This document shows, piece after piece, positions 2,859 through 64,000 of a stretch of DNA of 64,000 bases (within the stretch, counting starts at the first letter, position 1; each line of letters opens with the position of its first letter). Location: positions 663,674 to 727,673 of the forward strand of contig JAVKGX010000001.1 of the NCBI GenBank assembly GCA_031432545.1. The letters run 5' to 3'. The translations under genes and the position numbers were made by a program. Below the pieces are notes generated by a model that did no database searches, was not told the origin of the DNA, and worked only from the letters and a program-made list of their open reading frames with translations. Source of the stretch: Armatimonadota bacterium (GTDB lineage: Bacteria > Sysuimicrobiota > Sysuimicrobiia > Sysuimicrobiales > Sysuimicrobiaceae).

Positions 2859-3811
2859 CGATCGAGCGGATCGCGCTGGCTGCCACCCTGAGCGCGGTGG
2901 TGGTGCTGGCGGTCGGCCCCCTTGCCATCCCCTGGCTGCGGGCGTTCGCGCGCCAGCCGATCAGTGAGGACGCCCCCCCGCGCCACCGGGAGAAGGCGGA
3001 CGTCCCGACGATGGGCGGCGTGCTGATGATCGCCGCGGTGGTGGTCACGCTGCTGGCCCTGTGGATTGGGAGCCGGACGCTGGGCATCGTGTTCGTTGCT
3101 TTCTTGGGATGCGGGGCCGCCGGCCTGGTTGACGATTTGCTCAAGGCGCGCCGCGGGCGCAACCTGGGGCTGCGCGCGCGCGAGAAGCTCGCCTTCCAGA
3201 TTCCGATCGGCCTGGCGATCGGATACTACGCGATGGAGTTCACGGGGCTGGGTTCGGCGCTCGTGCTGCCGTGGATCGGGGAGGTCCGGCTCGGCTGGCT
3301 GTACCTCCCGTTCGCGGTGCTGTTCATGGTGGGTTTCACCAACGGCGTCAACCTGACGGACGGACTCGACGGGCTGGGCGCCGGTACCGTGGCCATCGCG
3401 GCGGTGGCCTATACGGGCGTCGCGCTGCACGTGGGACGTGCAGACGTCGCGGCGTTCGCGGCGGCCCTGGCGGGGGCGTGCCTGGGTTTTCTCTGGTACA
3501 ATGCGCATCCCGCCCAGGTGATCATGGGGGACGTCGGATCGCAGGCGCTGGGCGGCGCGCTGGCCGCGATGGCGATCGTCACCAAGACCGAGCTCACCTT
3601 GCTGGTGATCGGGATCGTGTTCGTGCTGGAGGCGGCGTCAGTGGTGCTGCAGGTCGCCTACTTCAGGGCCACCGGGGGCCGACGGATCTTCCGCAGCTCG
3701 CCGTTGCACCACCACTTCGAGCTCGCCGGCTGGGCAGAGACCCAGATCGTGACCCGGTTCTGGTTGGTGGGCTCGCTGGGGGCGCTCGCTGGGCTGACGG
3801 TCGTCCTGTGA
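2855..3811 (+). CDS. mraY: phospho-N-acetylmuramoyl-pentapeptide transferase
   Basis: Integral membrane enzyme that transfers phospho-MurNAc-pentapeptide to undecaprenyl phosphate, making lipid I. The 318-residue product is a little short for the family but has its marks: the early PTMGG motif, the Asp-Asp pair in VDDLLK near residues 93-94, NLTDGLDGLGAG near residue 165, and SPLHHHFE near residue 282. About ten hydrophobic segments are visible. The start ATG overlaps the murF stop, and a 13-base gap separates it from murD. Confidence 0.97.
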   Translation: MTIERIALAATLSAVVVLAVGPLAIPWLRAFARQPISEDAPPRHREKADVPTMGGVLMIAAVVVTLLALWIGSRTLGIVFVAFLGCGAAGLVDDLLKARRGRNLGLRAREKLAFQIPIGLAIGYYAMEFTGLGSALVLPWIGEVRLGWLYLPFAVLFMVGFTNGVNLTDGLDGLGAGTVAIAAVAYTGVALHVGRADVAAFAAALAGACLGFLWYNAHPAQVIMGDVGSQALGGALAAMAIVTKTELTLLVIGIVFVLEAASVVLQVAYFRATGGRRIFRSSPLHHHFELAGWAETQIVTRFWLVGSLGALAGLTVVL

Positions 3812-3824
3812 AGGGAACTGGGGG

Positions 3825-5300
3825 ATGGAAGCTCTGGAAGGCCTGCGCGGAAAGCGCATCCACGTGCTGGGGATCAGCGGTACGGAGGGTTGTGCGGTCG
3901 CGCGGTTCTTGCTCGCGCAAGGGATCGAGTCGACCTGCCACGACCTGACCGCACTGCAGACCTTCCCCGAAGTCTTCGCGCGGACGCACGCCTGGATGGC
4001 GCGCGACGAGCGCGAACGCATCATCCGCTGGTGGCTGTCCGAACCGGTGCCGGTGCGCTGGAGGGATCGCTACCTGGAAGGGATCGAGCGCGCAGAGGTG
4101 ATCTTCCTGCCGCAGGCATGGTTCCGCCATCCGGAGAACGCGCCCGTACGGGAGCGCCTCCAGGCCGGGGTCAGGGCACATAGCATGACGCAGTTGGTCT
4201 TCGACCTCTGCCCCTGCCCCATCGTGGGCGTCACCGGCACCAACGGGAAGTTCACGGTCGCCACGTTGATCCACCGCATGCTGACCGCCGCCGGGCTGCG
4301 CGCGCACATCAGCGGCAACGATCGCACGCACGTGCCGATCCTGTACCGGATGGCCGAGGTGCTCCCCACGGACCGGTTGGTGCTGGAGATCAGCAACCGG
4401 CAGCTGCTCGGGCTGCGCAGCAGCCCGCAGGTCGCAGTGCTCACGAACATCCAGCCGCACCACCTCGACGACCACGGCACCTTCGAAGCGTACGTGCGCT
4501 GCAAGGCCGGGATCTTCCGTCACCAGCGGGCGGAGGACTTCGCGGTCGTCAACCTCGATGACCCGGCGTCGGCCTCGCTGATCCCGCAGATCCGCGCGCG
4601 CCTCGTCCCGTTCCGCCGCGCGGGGGGCCCGGGTCTCGGGGCGGGCGCGTGGCTCGCCGAGGGATGGATCCTGACAGAGCGCGGCACGCCGGTCGTCGCC
4701 GTGGATGCGCTGCTGTCGACCGGCGACCACGTGCTCGAAAACGCCCTCGCCGCGTGCGCCGCCTGCTCGATGATGGACGTGCCCCCCCAGACGATGGCCG
4801 ACGTCCTACGGCGGTTCGAAGGGCTTCCCTACCGCATGCAGGTGGTGGCCGAACACCGTGGCGTGCGCTACGTCAACGACTCGCTGGCGACGAACCCCAG
4901 CGCGGCGGCTGCGGCGATCCGCGCGATGCGGTCCCCGTTCGTTTTGATCGCCGGCGGCGTGCGGCACAACGCGACCGCCGAGGACTTCGCGCCGATGGCG
5001 CACGCGCTGCGCGCCAGCCCGGTGCGGGCCGTCTACCTGATCGGTCGTTGTGCGCGGGCGATGGCCGAGGCCTTCGGCGGTCTGGGGGCGGAGGTCGTGG
5101 ACGTCGGCACCCTGCCGCAGGCGTTCCGCCGGGCCACGAACCTGGCGCGGCCGGGGGAGGTCGTCTTGCTGTCTCCGGGCTGCGAGTCGTTCGACCAGTT
5201 CGCCGACTATCGGGAGCGGGGGGACGTCTTCGACGGCCTCGTGCGTGCGGCGACAGCCCAACGTCATCCGGAACCCGAGCGATCCCAAACCGCACGATGA
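3825..5300 (+). CDS. murD: MurD-like UDP-MurNAc-L-alanine--D-glutamate ligase, divergent
   Basis: By position and fold this is MurD, which adds D-Glu to UDP-MurNAc-L-Ala. The 491-residue protein has the three Mur-ligase domains and a recognisable C-terminus (LLSPGCESFDQFADY, YRERGD). The active site departs from the family at several places. The P-loop is GVTGTNGKFT with Phe143 after Lys142 instead of Ser/Thr. The usual NDSKATN reads NDSLATNP (Leu354). The usual DHLD reads HHLDDH. The segment between the N-terminal Rossmann fold and the P-loop (residues about 50-110) is also unlike normal MurD. The lysine that is carbamylated in the family seems present (RCKAGIF). The gene sits exactly where murD belongs, between mraY and ftsW, with an ATGA overlap to ftsW. 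It could be a lineage-specific MurD or a substituted paralogue. Confidence 0.85.
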   Translation: MEALEGLRGKRIHVLGISGTEGCAVARFLLAQGIESTCHDLTALQTFPEVFARTHAWMARDERERIIRWWLSEPVPVRWRDRYLEGIERAEVIFLPQAWFRHPENAPVRERLQAGVRAHSMTQLVFDLCPCPIVGVTGTNGKFTVATLIHRMLTAAGLRAHISGNDRTHVPILYRMAEVLPTDRLVLEISNRQLLGLRSSPQVAVLTNIQPHHLDDHGTFEAYVRCKAGIFRHQRAEDFAVVNLDDPASASLIPQIRARLVPFRRAGGPGLGAGAWLAEGWILTERGTPVVAVDALLSTGDHVLENALAACAACSMMDVPPQTMADVLRRFEGLPYRMQVVAEHRGVRYVNDSLATNPSAAAAAIRAMRSPFVLIAGGVRHNATAEDFAPMAHALRASPVRAVYLIGRCARAMAEAFGGLGAEVVDVGTLPQAFRRATNLARPGEVVLLSPGCESFDQFADYRERGDVFDGLVRAATAQRHPEPERSQTAR

Positions 5301-58725: not shown

Positions 58726-59670
58726 ATGCGAGGCCTCGCGGTCGTGGCGATCGGCGGCAACTCCTTGATCCGGGATGAACGTGACGTGTCGGTGGCCGCG
58801 GAGCGGGAGGCGGTGCGCGAGACCGCAGAGCAGATCGCGGGCATGGTCGCCGAGGGCTGGCGCATCCTGCTGACCCACGGGAACGGCCCGCAGGTGGGGT
58901 TCAACATGCTGCGGGCGGAGGTGGCCGCCAAAGCCGGATTGCTGCCGAGACTGCCGCTGGACGTCCTCGACGCGCAGACGCAGGGCAGCATCGGTTATCT
59001 GCTGCTCGAGAGCCTCGAACGGGCGTTCACGCGCCCCGGAGTCCGACGACCGATCGCGGTGCTGGTCACCCGCGTGGTCGTGGACGACCATGATCCGGCC
59101 TTCGCCCAGCCGACCAAGCCGGTCGGTCCCTACTATACGGAGGAAGAGGCGCTCGCACTGCAGCGCGAGGAAGGCTGGAAGATGATGGAGCAGGAGCGGG
59201 GGTGGCGGCGCGTGGTGCCCTCTCCGCGCCCTCTGGAGATCGTCGAACTGGATGCGATCCGCATCCTGCTCCAACAAGGCTACATCGTCATCGCTGGGGG
59301 CGGAGGCGGCATCCCGGTCGTGCGGCAACGGGACGGGACGCTGCGCGGCGTCGAGGCGGTCGTAGACAAGGATCTGGCGTCGTCGTTGCTCGCGCAGGCT
59401 TTCGATGCCGAGCTGTTTTTGATCTCCACGGGCGTGCCGCAGGTGGCGCTAGACTTCGGCCGGCCGACGCAGCGCTGGGTGGATCACATGACGGCCGCCC
59501 AAGCCCGGCGATATCTGGAAGAAGGACACTTCCCGCCGGGCAGCATGGGACCCAAGATCGAAGCGGCGGTGGCCTACCTGGAGGCCGGGGGCAGGCAGGT
59601 CGTGATCACCTCGCCCGACTCGCTGCTGAGTGCGCTGCGGGGGGATACGGGGACGCGGATCACCGCCTGA
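58726..59670 (+). CDS. arcC: carbamate kinase
   Basis: 314 residues: VVAIGGNSLI, LLTHGNGPQVGFNMLR, DAQTQGSIGYLL, QPTKPVGPYYTEEEA, GGGGGIPVV, VDKDLASSLLA, GSMGPKIEAAVAYLEAGG. Makes ATP from carbamoyl phosphate in arginine, citrulline or purine breakdown, or the reverse. No arcA/arcB is present in the window. Confidence 0.94.
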   Translation: MRGLAVVAIGGNSLIRDERDVSVAAEREAVRETAEQIAGMVAEGWRILLTHGNGPQVGFNMLRAEVAAKAGLLPRLPLDVLDAQTQGSIGYLLLESLERAFTRPGVRRPIAVLVTRVVVDDHDPAFAQPTKPVGPYYTEEEALALQREEGWKMMEQERGWRRVVPSPRPLEIVELDAIRILLQQGYIVIAGGGGGIPVVRQRDGTLRGVEAVVDKDLASSLLAQAFDAELFLISTGVPQVALDFGRPTQRWVDHMTAAQARRYLEEGHFPPGSMGPKIEAAVAYLEAGGRQVVITSPDSLLSALRGDTGTRITA

Positions 59671-59692
59671 AGGGCGGAGGGGAGGCACCGTC

Positions 59693-60883
59693 GTGCACGA
59701 ATCCAAGCTGTCTTCTCTGATGTCGCGCCTGGGAACCGAGACGGCATTCGAGGTGTTGGCGCGCGCGCGGGCGCTGGAGGCGCGGGGGCGCCACGTCGTC
59801 CACCTGGAAATTGGGGAACCCGACTTCGACACCCCCGCGTTCATCAAGCAGGCGGCGGTGCAGGCGTTGGAGGAAGGCTACACCCACTACACGCCGGCGG
59901 CCGGTCTGCCGCAGGCGCGGGAGGCGGTCGCGCGCTACGTCTCGCGCACTCGCGGGCTGTCGGTGGATCCCTCCGAGGTGGTGATCACGCCCGGCGGCAA
60001 ACCGGTGATGTCGTTTGCGATCCTCGCGCTCGTCGACGCGGGCGAGGAGGTCATCTACCCGAATCCGGGATTCCCGATTTACGAGTCGATGATCCGCTGG
60101 GTGGGCGCGGTCCCCAAGCCGCTGCCGTTGCGCGAGGAGCACGACTTCCGGGCCGACCCTGACGAACTGCGCGACCTGGTGAGCCCCCGGACGCGCATGC
60201 TGATCCTGAACTCGCCGCATAACCCGTGTGGGTCGGTGCTGTCGCTTCAGGACGTCGCGGCGATCGCGGAGATCTGCACCGAGCGCGACATCTACGTGCT
60301 GTCGGACGAGATCTACAGCCGCATCCTCTACGACACAGAACACGTGAGCATCGCGGCGTTTCCCGGCATGCGCGAGCGCACGATCCTCCTCGACGGGTTC
60401 TCCAAGACGTACGCGATGACCGGGTGGCGGCTGGGGTATGGGGTGATGCCCCCGCGCGTCGCGCAGGCGGTCACGCAGTTGATGATCAACGTGAACTCGT
60501 GCACGGCTGCGTTCACCCAGATCGCCGGAATCGCCGCGCTGGAGGGACCGCAGGAAGAGGTCGACGCGATGGTGGCGGAGTTCCGCCACCGCCGGGATGC
60601 CATCGTCGCGGGTCTCAACGCGATCGAGGGGATCCGTTGCCGTCCTCCGGCCGGTGCCTTCTATGCGTTCCCCAACGTGAGTGCGCTCGACCCGGACGGC
60701 CGGCGCTTTGCCGACTACCTCCTCGACGAAGCCGGCGTCGCCGTACTCGCCGGCACCGCCTTCGGCGAGTATGGCCGGGGATATCTGCGCATCTCGTACG
60801 CCAACAGCCTGGCCAACATCCAGGAGGCGCTCCGGCGCATCGGGGAAGCGGCCAGAGCGTTCCGGTCGGAGGTCCGGGCCTAG
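59693..60883 (+). CDS. PLP-dependent class I/II aminotransferase
   Basis: 396 residues, AspC/AlaT-like fold type I. LEIGEPDFDTP, YTHYTPAAGLPQAREAVARY, NSPHNPCGSVL, VLSDEIYSRILYD, and the PLP-lysine motif DGFSKTYAMTGWRLGYG are visible; the C-terminal arginine is in GYLRISYANS. GTG 59693 follows gcggaggggagg. Substrate not predictable; the neighbours suggest amino acid catabolism. Confidence 0.92.
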   Translation: MHESKLSSLMSRLGTETAFEVLARARALEARGRHVVHLEIGEPDFDTPAFIKQAAVQALEEGYTHYTPAAGLPQAREAVARYVSRTRGLSVDPSEVVITPGGKPVMSFAILALVDAGEEVIYPNPGFPIYESMIRWVGAVPKPLPLREEHDFRADPDELRDLVSPRTRMLILNSPHNPCGSVLSLQDVAAIAEICTERDIYVLSDEIYSRILYDTEHVSIAAFPGMRERTILLDGFSKTYAMTGWRLGYGVMPPRVAQAVTQLMINVNSCTAAFTQIAGIAALEGPQEEVDAMVAEFRHRRDAIVAGLNAIEGIRCRPPAGAFYAFPNVSALDPDGRRFADYLLDEAGVAVLAGTAFGEYGRGYLRISYANSLANIQEALRRIGEAARAFRSEVRA

Positions 60884-60927
60884 CGCGATGCCGCGAACCG
60901 CGTCGCTTCGGACGACGTTCTCCGGGT

Positions 60928-61224
60928 ATGATGCTGGAATTCGTGCGCAACGATCAAGAACTCGGCTCGGTGCTGGCGCATGAGGTCGCCCACGCAAACC
61001 AGCGGCACCACGTGCAACTGCTCGAACGGAACTTCACGCCGGCCGTCGTGGCCGCGGTGCTGACGGGCGGGAATCCGGACGCCGCTGCAGTCGCCGACTT
61101 CGTGCGCTTCCTGCTCACGCGGGGGTTCAGCCGCGAGTTCGAGGCCGACCGGGTGGGCGTGCGGTTGATGCACCGGGGGCGGGCGACTGCATCGTGCGCG
61201 TCCGGGAGGAGTTGCGCCGCCTGA
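60928..61224 (+). pseudogene. remnant of an M48 metalloprotease
   Basis: From ATG 60928 the frame reads EFVRNDQELGSVLAHEVAH, an HEXXH zinc site, and later FSREFEADRVGVRLM with the third ligand. The N-terminal membrane/secretion part and the C-terminal half normal for M48 (usually 250 residues or more) are missing; after RLM the sequence loses similarity. It looks like an internal fragment left by deletion. Confidence 0.65.
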
Positions 61225-61263
61225 GTATCGGGTGTAGGGGTCGATCCTCGGAGGCCGGCGGTC

Positions 61264-62079
61264 TCAGTACACGATCACCCGCGCCCGAAACGAACCGCCG
61301 ATCCCCGCGCCGGACGCCGGGGCACCCCAGACGGTCACCATGCTGCCCAGTGGGATCTCCTCGAACGACCCGAGCCTACCGCCCGAGATGAGGAAGACGT
61401 CGCCGGCCACGTCCACGGCAACGAGGCCGTTGAGGATCAGGAGCCTCGTCGGGCTGTTCTTGGCGGTGACGACGCCGCCAATCGACGTCGCGGCGGCGAA
61501 CGTGACTTCGATCTGCCTCGCCACCAGCGCACCGTCGCCGACCGTGCCCCGGACGTTCACGATGTCGTCGTGGGAGAGGGAGGCGACGGACTGTCGCTGT
61601 CCGACGACACGTGTCTGGTCCGTCAACCATACCCGAAGGCTGCTGCCGTCGCGCTGCAAGACGGTGAGCACGTTGGGACCGCGCAGGACGATGACGCCGG
61701 TCGCGATCCGCCCTGCTGTGGCGTCGCGGCGTCCTTCGACTTCCACCTTCAGGGCCAGCACACGCCCATCGTCCAGCCGCAGCCCCTCGACCTCCACGCG
61801 GTCGCCCACGCGCAGGTCGCGCAGGCTACCGCGCCGGGTGTCGCGACGCCGGTCGACCTCGAAGCGCGTGAAGCTCTGGACCCAAACCGTCACGAGTGCG
61901 AAGCCGCTGCGGTCCACGTGGACGCTGAACGTGCTGTTCCAGGGCGCCAGGGCGACGGCGGTTCCCTCGAACTTTACGCGTCCGGACTTCACGCGCCCGG
62001 AATGCCGGTGTGCCAGGGCCGGAGTCAGGGAGAAGACGGCGATCGTCACGGCCAGCGGTACGGCCAGCGAGCGGCGCAT
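61264..62079 (-). CDS. secreted DUF5666-like beta-repeat protein
   Basis: 271 residues with a signal peptide (LAVPLAVTIAVFSLTPALA). Three or four OB-like repeats follow (VGDRVEVEGLRLDDGRVLA, HDDIVNVRGTVGDGALVAR, LGSMVTVWGAPASGAG), as in DUF5666 proteins. Role unknown. ATG 62079 is 9 bases after GGAGG on the minus strand; a GTG two codons earlier is possible. Confidence 0.75.
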   Translation of the reverse strand: MRRSLAVPLAVTIAVFSLTPALAHRHSGRVKSGRVKFEGTAVALAPWNSTFSVHVDRSGFALVTVWVQSFTRFEVDRRRDTRRGSLRDLRVGDRVEVEGLRLDDGRVLALKVEVEGRRDATAGRIATGVIVLRGPNVLTVLQRDGSSLRVWLTDQTRVVGQRQSVASLSHDDIVNVRGTVGDGALVARQIEVTFAAATSIGGVVTAKNSPTRLLILNGLVAVDVAGDVFLISGGRLGSFEEIPLGSMVTVWGAPASGAGIGGSFRARVIVY

Positions 62080-62227
62080 CGTCACACCCCTCCTTTGATC
62101 GCTCCCCTACCCATTACGGGCAGCGTCGGGAAAACGTTTTGTGCATGGGTTGGACGTCGGGCAGTTCAGGCGCGAATTCCAGCTCGACGAGCGTTTGATC
62201 CACCGAAGCGGAGACTGGGGGTACACG

Positions 62228-63481
62228 ATGCACGCCCGGCGTGCGATCTGGATCGGGCCCGGCGAGGTGGGCTGGCTCGTCGTCCACTTTCCGTACGACC
62301 CGCAGTGCGTGGCGAAGATCAAGACCATCGCCGGCCGCCGCTGGCATCCTGAGGGGAAGTACTGGACAGTTCCCCGCACCGATGGAGTCCTCGCGCGCCT
62401 GCTGGCGCTGTTTGCGGGCCGTCCTGTTGAGGTGGACCCTGCGCTTCGCCCTGCAGATCGCCGCCGGGAATCGGCCACACCGGCCGACCCTGCGGCTGCT
62501 CACCCCTTGCCTGGGCCGCCCGGGCTCCTGGATCGGGCCCGTCAGGCCCTCCGTGCCCGCCACTACAGCCGGAGGACCGAACAGGCGTATGCGGCCTGGA
62601 TTGCGCGGTTCGTTGGGTTCCATGGTGGGCGCGATCCCGGCGAGATGGGAGAGCGGGAAGTCAACGCGTTCCTGACCCACCTGGCCGTCAGCGACCGTGT
62701 GGCCGCCTCGACGCAGAACCAGGCCCTGGCCGCCCTCCTCTTTCTGTACCACAGCGTCTTGCAGCACCCGTTGGGCCGGGTCGAAGGGGTCGTGCGGGCG
62801 AGGCGCCCTCGACGGGTGCCGGTCGTCCTGAGCCGTCAGGAGGTCAGTGCAATACTGGACGGTCTCGATGGGACCACGCGTCTGGTCTGTGCGCTGCTGT
62901 ACGGCTCCGGGCTGCGCCTGCTGGAGTGCCTGCGCCTGAGAGTGAAGGACATCGACTTCCAGCGCCACGAGGTGACCGTCCGCGACGGCAAGGGCGGTAA
63001 GGACCGGGTGACCATGTTGCCCGCCGCCGTGGCTGGCCAGTTGCAGGCTCATCTCGAGCGGATCCGCCGCCAGCATGCGAAGGATCTGGCGCGAGGCCTG
63101 GGTCGGGCGCCGATGCCGGACGCCCTTGCCCGCAAGTTCCCAGGGGCCGACCGCCAGTGGGCCTGGCAGTGGGTCTTCCCGTCCTCGTCCCACTATGTCG
63201 AGCCTTCGACGGGCGTGCGCCACCGGCACCACCTGCACGAGTCGGTCATCCAGCGGGCGGTGAAGGAGGCGATCCGCCGGGTGGGGGTGACCAAACACGC
63301 GTCCTGCCATTCCTTCAGGCACTCGTTCGCCACACACCTCCTGGAAGACGGGTACGACATCCGGACGGTGCAGGAGTTACTCGGCCACAAGGACGTGAAG
63401 ACCACGATGATCTACACCCACGTGCTGAATCGCGGCGGGAAGGGGGTCAGGAGCCCGATGGACGGGCTACACCCCGGTTGA
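62228..63481 (+). CDS. integron-type tyrosine recombinase with HARP-like N-terminal domain
   Basis: About 417 residues. Residues 20-62 resemble the HARP fold ([31 protein letters not shown]). A SAM-like N-terminal core-binding domain follows ([18 protein letters not shown]), then the catalytic domain with Arg230 (YGSGLRLLE), the GKGGKDR lysine near 258, His361-x2-Arg364-His365 ([10 protein letters not shown]), His387 ([10 protein letters not shown]) and Tyr396 ([11 protein letters not shown]). Between the Arg and His boxes lies [17 protein letters not shown] plus [14 protein letters not shown], the extra segment that marks IntI integrases and lets them use folded attC DNA. A GTG at 62141, just after the palindrome aaaacgtttt, would add 29 residues. 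att-like sites follow directly downstream. Confidence 0.88.
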
Positions 63482-63522
63482 GCCTCGCTGACCTTGGGGT
63501 GTTAGGCTGACCGGTGGGGCAG

Positions 63523-63528
63523 TATAAT
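63523..63528 (+). promoter_or_regulatory. -10 element that could act as cassette promoter
   Basis: TATAAT 16 bases after the GTTAGGC of copy 1 and pointing towards the AT-richer gene. The best upstream hexamer is TTAGGC at a short 15-base spacing. It may be an integron Pc-type promoter. Confidence 0.45.
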
Positions 63529-63593
63529 GCCTGGCAAGGGGGGCCCGGCGGGATGGCGGGAACTCGGAGGGGACAAGCGACTGCGGGTGGGAC

Positions 63594-63641
63594 GGGCAAC
63601 TGGCCCCGTCGTCTTAGGCTGACAGGGACGGGGTGTTAGGC
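63594..63641 (+). other. compact attC-like hairpin
   Basis: Order of elements: GGGCAAC, TGG, CCCCGTC (63604-63610), 16-base loop containing repeat copy 2, GACGGGG (63627-63633), T, GTTAGGC (63635-63641). The inner arms pair perfectly over 7 bp. The outer AAC/GTT pair as R''/R' cores would, with unequal spacers (three versus one base), a known attC feature. At 48 bases it is shorter than usual attC sites, and the R'' box fits poorly to RYYYAAC. Confidence 0.45.
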
Positions 63642-63724
63642 TGGTCGGTCTAAACATGAGTTAGCTGGCTTCGCTGAAAATGCAACATCACTTTACGTAT
63701 TCCAAACGTTGAAGGAATTGAATC

Positions 63725-64000
63725 ATGAGAAAAGTCATTGTGCTTGAACATATCTCCCTTGATGGAGTTATTCAAGCCCCAGGCGGACCAGACGAAGATA
63801 CAAGCGGTGGCTTCCCGTATGGCGGGTGGATAAGTCTATTTCCCGATGATGTTCTTGGAAAGTTCCTGAGAAGTCAGATGAATATGCCATTTGACCTGTT
63901 GTTAGGACGCATAACCTTTGAAATTTGGGAGCCGTACTGGCCTCAACACGCAGATATATGGCCTAACGTCAACACAGCGACTAAGTATGTTGCCTCAAAC
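63725..64000 (+). CDS. DHFR/RibD-C-family reductase, 3' end outside window
   Basis: ATG 63725 behind gaagga opens 92 codons that stay open to the last base: MRKVIVLEHISLDGVIQAPG, GGPDEDTSGGFPYGGW, FDLLLGRITFEIWEPYWPQ. This is the YyaP/RibD-C-like dihydrofolate reductase superfamily. Its G+C, counted by hand over three 60-base lines, is 42-55%, far below the rest of the window, and codon choice differs (AAA, ATA, TTA). It is a good candidate for a captured integron cassette gene of foreign origin. Confidence 0.85.
   Translation, partial: MRKVIVLEHISLDGVIQAPGGPDEDTSGGFPYGGWISLFPDDVLGKFLRSQMNMPFDLLLGRITFEIWEPYWPQHADIWPNVNTATKYVASN

Follow-up and report, generated by a model that had tools for sequence, protein, structure and literature searches.

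The window analysed here, the whole 64,000-nucleotide stretch, is the right end of contig C1 (positions 663674-727673 of 727673 bases) in a genome of 2.19 Mb assembled into 21 contigs, and window and contig stop together. Close to this end lies an intact gene for a tyrosine recombinase (intI), followed on the same strand by a recombination region and by the beginning of a cassette (Table 1). An Rfam scan of the window returned a tRNA as its sole match.

Table 1 Features of the locus in the window (contig C1) and of the array on contig C10 of the same genome
Feature	Position	Strand	Basis or remark
Aminotransferase gene, left chromosomal flank for synteny test	59630..60883	+	Adjoins ComM in integron-free G004 and G005
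intI, integron integrase, 417 aa	62228..63481 (stop codon included)	+	ATG start, TGA stop, GGGGGT before ATG
N-terminal extension, HARP/XPB-DRD/UvsW-N-like module	62243..62467 (residues 6-80)	+	Model, fold matches, dN/dS
Tyrosine recombinase core: SAM-like N domain and catalytic domain	62525..63478	+	PF13495, PF00589
IntI-specific additional segment	63050..63181 (residues ~275-318)	+	Translation; conserved columns in alignment
attI: three TTAGGCTG repeats and core site CTAAACATGA-GTTAG	63482..63666	+	Conserved in G023, G007, G029 and G038
Repeat 1, GTTAGGCTGAC, putative integrase-binding repeat	63501..63511	+	Repeat search; 20 bases after intI stop
TATAAT, candidate -10 of cassette promoter Pc	63523..63528	+	TATAAT also in G029 and G038
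Repeat 2, CTTAGGCTGAC	63613..63623	+	Repeat search
Repeat 3, GTTAGGCTGGT	63635..63645	+	Repeat search
attI core: inverted sites CTAAAC and GTTAGCT around crossover	63650..63666	+	Window and four relatives; similar in G003
First cassette, low G+C, cut by contig end	63661..64000	+	Divergence after GTTAG
Cassette ORF, RibD_C/dihydrofolate reductase-like, 3′ end missing	63725..64000	+	tblastn, PF01872
attC	C10:163-229	+	Covariance model
attC	C10:1556-1619	+	Covariance model
attC	C10:2395-2466	+	Covariance model

The predicted IntI product retains all catalytic residues (R230, K258, H361, R364, H387 and Y396). It scored 467.1 bits against the integron integrase model TIGR02249 (cut-off 265), the sole model exceeded; the Xer models remained below their cut-offs, with 180 of 220 bits for XerA, 158 of 335 for XerC and 145 of 330 for XerD. 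The nearest solved structure is IntI4 (PDB 2a3v; sequence E value 1e-87), which was also the top Foldseek match, and dN/dS over the integrase core is 0.18-0.21. An earlier note on this DNA had read the gene as an IntI-type recombinase from its additional segment; the TIGR02249 score (467 vs 265 bits) and the segment itself, legible in the translation, bear this out, and both scores and phylogenetic grouping place the protein with IntI rather than with XerC/D or phage integrases.

The region directly behind intI aligns to the equivalent position in four relatives from the same order (G023, G007, G029 and G038; blastn E values of 9e-23, 3e-22, 2e-12 and 1e-7) and, judged by this alignment, is not a product of chance. 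Conservation runs through the core site, CTAAACATGA-GTTAG at 63650-63664, and ends at GTTAG, beyond which each genome has different DNA, as expected for an attI site with an inserted cassette and a crossover at 63660/63661. In the window the R site reads GTTAGCT, one base off the RRRY of the G^TTRRRY crossover. The repeat differs (TTATCC) in G003, a member of the same family, and the end is identical, TAAACAGGAGTTAGGC. The TATAAT element noticed earlier is present and is a candidate -10 of Pc; no consensus -35 for Pc was found, and a promoter scan gave no full match.

The GTTAGGC-type sites that the earlier note had placed within 20 bases of intI do exist, as TTAGGCTG repeats beginning at 63501, 63613 and 63635, and they form attI, not attC. 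Its attC-like hairpin was rejected as an attC: a covariance search of 61000-64000 gave no standout match (the best within 63482-63700 reached 5.7 bits, E 1.4), a strict finder seeking R-box palindromes within ~160 bases returned nothing in the window, and a looser finder nothing in the window's tail. The hairpin belongs to attI. The incomplete gene of foreign composition was correctly described, with a G+C content of ~45% around the ORF vs ~68-70% upstream. By tblastn the ORF matches a 'dihydrofolate reductase family protein' at ~50%, and its match to PF01872 (E 0.0026) lies below the cut-off.

Using an attC covariance model trained on 18 sites from other genomes, we identified exactly three sites in this genome. 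They cluster at the left end of contig C10, share the + strand and have E values from 2.7e-6 to 1.6e-8. As a control, the model found none in G002, G005 or G006 and a single weak match in G004 (E 0.86). In G003, intI stands at a contig end and three attC sites at the start of another contig, a like assembly break; G001 has one attC. C10 starts within a cassette. Its three complete cassette ORFs run in the + direction, and in each complete cassette the final gene stops beside the attC. The products are an alpha/beta hydrolase, accompanied by a SnoaL-like gene, and a class-II glutamine amidotransferase; across the cassettes read on C1 and C10 no resistance cassette was seen. Beyond the array follow comM, dprA, topA and a xer gene.

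Two sister genomes without intI (G004 and G005) indicate how the contigs belong together. In both, comM and dprA come directly after the aminotransferase gene and share its strand. Since genes found at the two contig ends are adjacent there, the right end of C1 and the left end of C10 would flank one array, a join drawn from synteny, with the + strand of C10 equal to that of the window. The same adjacency confirms the place of the integron and the direction of its cassettes. Thus attC sites do occur beyond position 64000, where the earlier note had advised looking, and in the expected direction; its claim that intI and cassettes run the same way holds. A search of the genome for the end of the first cassette found no DNA overlap between contigs. 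The ORF before the first attC of C10 does not resemble the end of the RibD_C gene, so one or more cassette boundaries are probably lost between C1 and C10.

To the left, a short M48 peptidase-like remnant occupies 60884-61239, between the aminotransferase gene and a DUF5666 gene. The sister genomes differ here, and the interval resembles a small variable site.

We consider it very probable that the locus is a complete sedentary chromosomal integron of the inverted type, between the aminotransferase gene and comM-dprA. The IntI family, attI and its boundary, the same-genome, same-direction attC sites, the insertion site and the clade are each established by sequence. The integron reading of the earlier note is thereby upheld in the integrase, the attC array and the direction, and corrected in that the sites beside intI are attI rather than attC. 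The alternative that fares best is a dead platform, of which only intI and attI remain, the attC sites on C10 being a separate integrase-less cluster and the low-G+C ORF an unrelated insertion. C1 and C10 are indeed unjoined, and decay is common in the phylum, as several relatives have broken intI copies; we nevertheless judge it improbable, because here the integrase ORF is intact with every catalytic residue and a dN/dS of ~0.2, attI is intact, C10 opens inside a cassette and synteny sets it beside the end of C1.

In the phylum, broken or partial copies of intI occur often (L110, L116, L117, L119, L120, L121, L122, L125 and L126), and some adjoin an intact attI or attC. At L110 the copy itself is intact, and further partial copies occur in its genome. 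The frequency of broken copies, some beside intact recombination sites, suggests that integron platforms were repeatedly gained and decayed in this phylum.

The integrase of this inverted integron carries an N-terminal module that was absent from the earlier note. Residues 1-96 are lacking in most IntI. The predicted structure is confident over residues 11-70 (pLDDT ~91) and is followed by a low-confidence linker to about residue 99; the full-length model repeats the fold, with a loose linker. As judged from dN/dS, which is 0.26-0.38 in the module and 0.85-2.2 in the linker, the module is under purifying selection. It recurs in the integrases of G023, G032 and G038, of Methylomirabilota, Nitrospirota and Spirochaetota, and of further genomes, and an alignment of eight module-bearing integrases from several phyla has seven invariant residues. 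Further fragments of such integrases were seen at L151 and L153 (G014:C10 and G038:C1), the latter with an attC downstream (1538-1627, 49.6 bits).

The extension could be thought a read-through of an upstream open frame, with the true start near residue 95, since most IntI relatives lack it and long open frames occur in GC-rich DNA. This is very unlikely given the invariant residues shared across phyla, the constraint on the module while the linker behind it is free, the confident fold and the presence of the module before other DNA enzymes. In a sample of 386 genomes we found it also preceding XerA-type recombinases (as the N-terminal 80-100 residues in L223, L224, L226, L227, L228, L230 and L236), XseA (L231 and L233) and XPB-like or SNF2-type helicases; a search on plasmids and phages gave no match.

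The closest fold matches of the module are the T4 UvsW N-terminal domain (Z 8.2), archaeal XPB (~6.2) and SMARCAL1 HARP (4o66; 4.4), on a scale on which the unrelated CASTOR1 and eIF1 reach 6-7. HARP was the best sequence match in the PDB (E 0.1) and the only Pfam family matched repeatedly, in six of the eight members and below the cut-off; residues 6-80 miss the gathering score of PF07443 (16 of 25 bits), so we call the module HARP-like only. According to a review (PMC3409536), it is the HP domains that determine the strand-annealing activity of HARP. Taken together, these observations make the module most likely a unit that recognises branched or single-stranded DNA. For an enzyme whose attC substrate is a folded single strand, attC binding would be a natural function, and we tentatively suggest that the module may help the integrase to hold branched or hairpin DNA such as folded attC. 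In a wider form, equally tentative, a module of this HARP/XPB-DRD/UvsW-N type might help to find, hold or refold the attC hairpin, or to resolve the junction after exchange.

A single late gain of the module was rejected, as the module-bearing integrases do not form one clade and at least 3 to 5 changes are required. Its occurrence on XerA-type recombinases raises the idea that the IntI lineage may have had it ancestrally and that the well-studied members have since lost it. In the open-access literature we found no description of HARP or of an N-terminal extension on integron integrases, and it is the module on an integron integrase that looks new.

To place the orientation, we surveyed 80 loci from named genomes; in the wider genome set the phylum is represented by 43 genomes of one order. 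The same layout, with intI transcribed toward the cassettes, is found in G038, G029, G023, G010 and G026 and in other phyla: attC sites lie downstream of intI on its own strand in L034, L043, L044, L046 and L059, in the Coriobacteriia loci L040, L042 and L045, and in others. Loci from cyanobacteria, Chloroflexi and some Gammaproteobacteria have attC upstream of intI on the other strand, as does the class 1 integron control, and a few loci have attC on both sides. In a tree of integrase cores, one branch (SH-aLRT 98.8) splits 18 attC-downstream from 20 attC-upstream loci, consistent with a single change; the set does not contain the T. denticola IntI. Published work covers Treponema integrons in which intI is read toward attI (PMC3607928), Spirochaetota IntIs that are generally reversed (PMC9668308) and a named 'inverted integrase group' (PMC10500605), which our attC-downstream clade of many phyla matches. 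The arrangement is thus known as a kind; the present survey adds its distribution across many phyla and its presence in this one. The earlier note took it to be reported for few integrons, whereas an entire IntI clade is marked by it. The view of that note that the integron is notable therefore holds only in part.

The same analyses dispose of an XerC/XerD-type or phage tyrosine recombinase lying beside unrelated repeats with no integron at all, a reading that draws on the catalytic domain common to tyrosine recombinases and on the matches to the XerA, XerC and XerD models, and that we regard as extremely unlikely because the attC array and the tree already contradict it, only TIGR02249 exceeds its cut-off, the protein has the IntI-specific segment, IntI4 is the nearest solved structure, attI is conserved, and the genome has its own Xer-like genes elsewhere, outside the IntI clade.

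Some reverse integrons in the survey also have same-direction attC sites upstream of intI (L032:209-4068, L033:1387-1458 and L059:3035-7397). The order in L059 is a cassette gene (3035-4006) with its attC (4001-4100), intI, an attI-like region and another attC. With a same-direction attC upstream and attI downstream, in direct repeat, intI could in principle be cut out in the way a cassette is. The records named Coriobacteriia or relatives (L042, L045 and L040) have ~5 to 10 attC sites behind intI; IntegronFinder 2.0 reported no complete integron in Actinobacteria (PMC9024848).

For the inverted integron of the window we infer that recombination occurs, together with the strand used and the promoter. 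IntI, transcribed toward attI, would recombine the folded bottom strand of a cassette attC with attI at G^TTAG (63660/63661). New cassettes would then enter directly behind intI and in its direction, to be read either from a promoter inside attI (TATAAT, with no good -35) or by read-through from intI. A central question for integrons is how their integrases pick a folded single strand among cellular DNA, and which host factors help. An integrase with its own module of a branched-DNA type makes recognition directly testable by deleting one domain and, if the suggested role is true, the module would give the enzyme a further step of substrate recognition that neither IntI1 nor the Vibrio integrase is known to have. 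Far from being curiosities, integrons with the same-direction layout make up a single IntI clade distributed among many phyla, and attI regions that can be read by comparison should improve integron detection where intI and attC are split across contigs.

Among known systems, the closest are the inverted integrase group and the Treponema reverse integrons, which share intI pointing toward attI, the direction of the cassettes and an attI directly behind intI (PMC3607928, PMC9668308, PMC10500605); a Spirochaetaceae relative (L098) joins this integrase in the clade and shares its N-terminal module. Unlike the Treponema integrons, the present one belongs to another phylum and a high-G+C host, has its own attI with TTAGGCTG repeats, and shows few cassettes. 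Class 1 integrons resemble it in an integrase core that is 52.8% identical, in attI-attC recombination sites and in unidirectional cassettes, but in them the cassettes are found upstream of intI1 and on the opposite strand, and IntI1 is without the extension. The V. cholerae integrase of 2a3v (IntI4/VchIntIA) shares the core fold and the IntI-specific segment, yet has 320 residues and no N-terminal module. XerA-type recombinases bearing the module (the L223-L236 set) likewise place it before a tyrosine recombinase; they differ in having no IntI segment, and their best model is XerA (NF040815, over the cut-off in three of four scanned), with TIGR02249 below its cut-off. The small alpha/beta fold of the module may be similar to those of SMARCAL1 HARP (4o66), the archaeal XPB damage-recognition domain and the T4 UvsW N-terminal domain, all carried by enzymes whose substrates are branched or damaged DNA; there the modules sit on helicases, whereas here the module sits on a recombinase.
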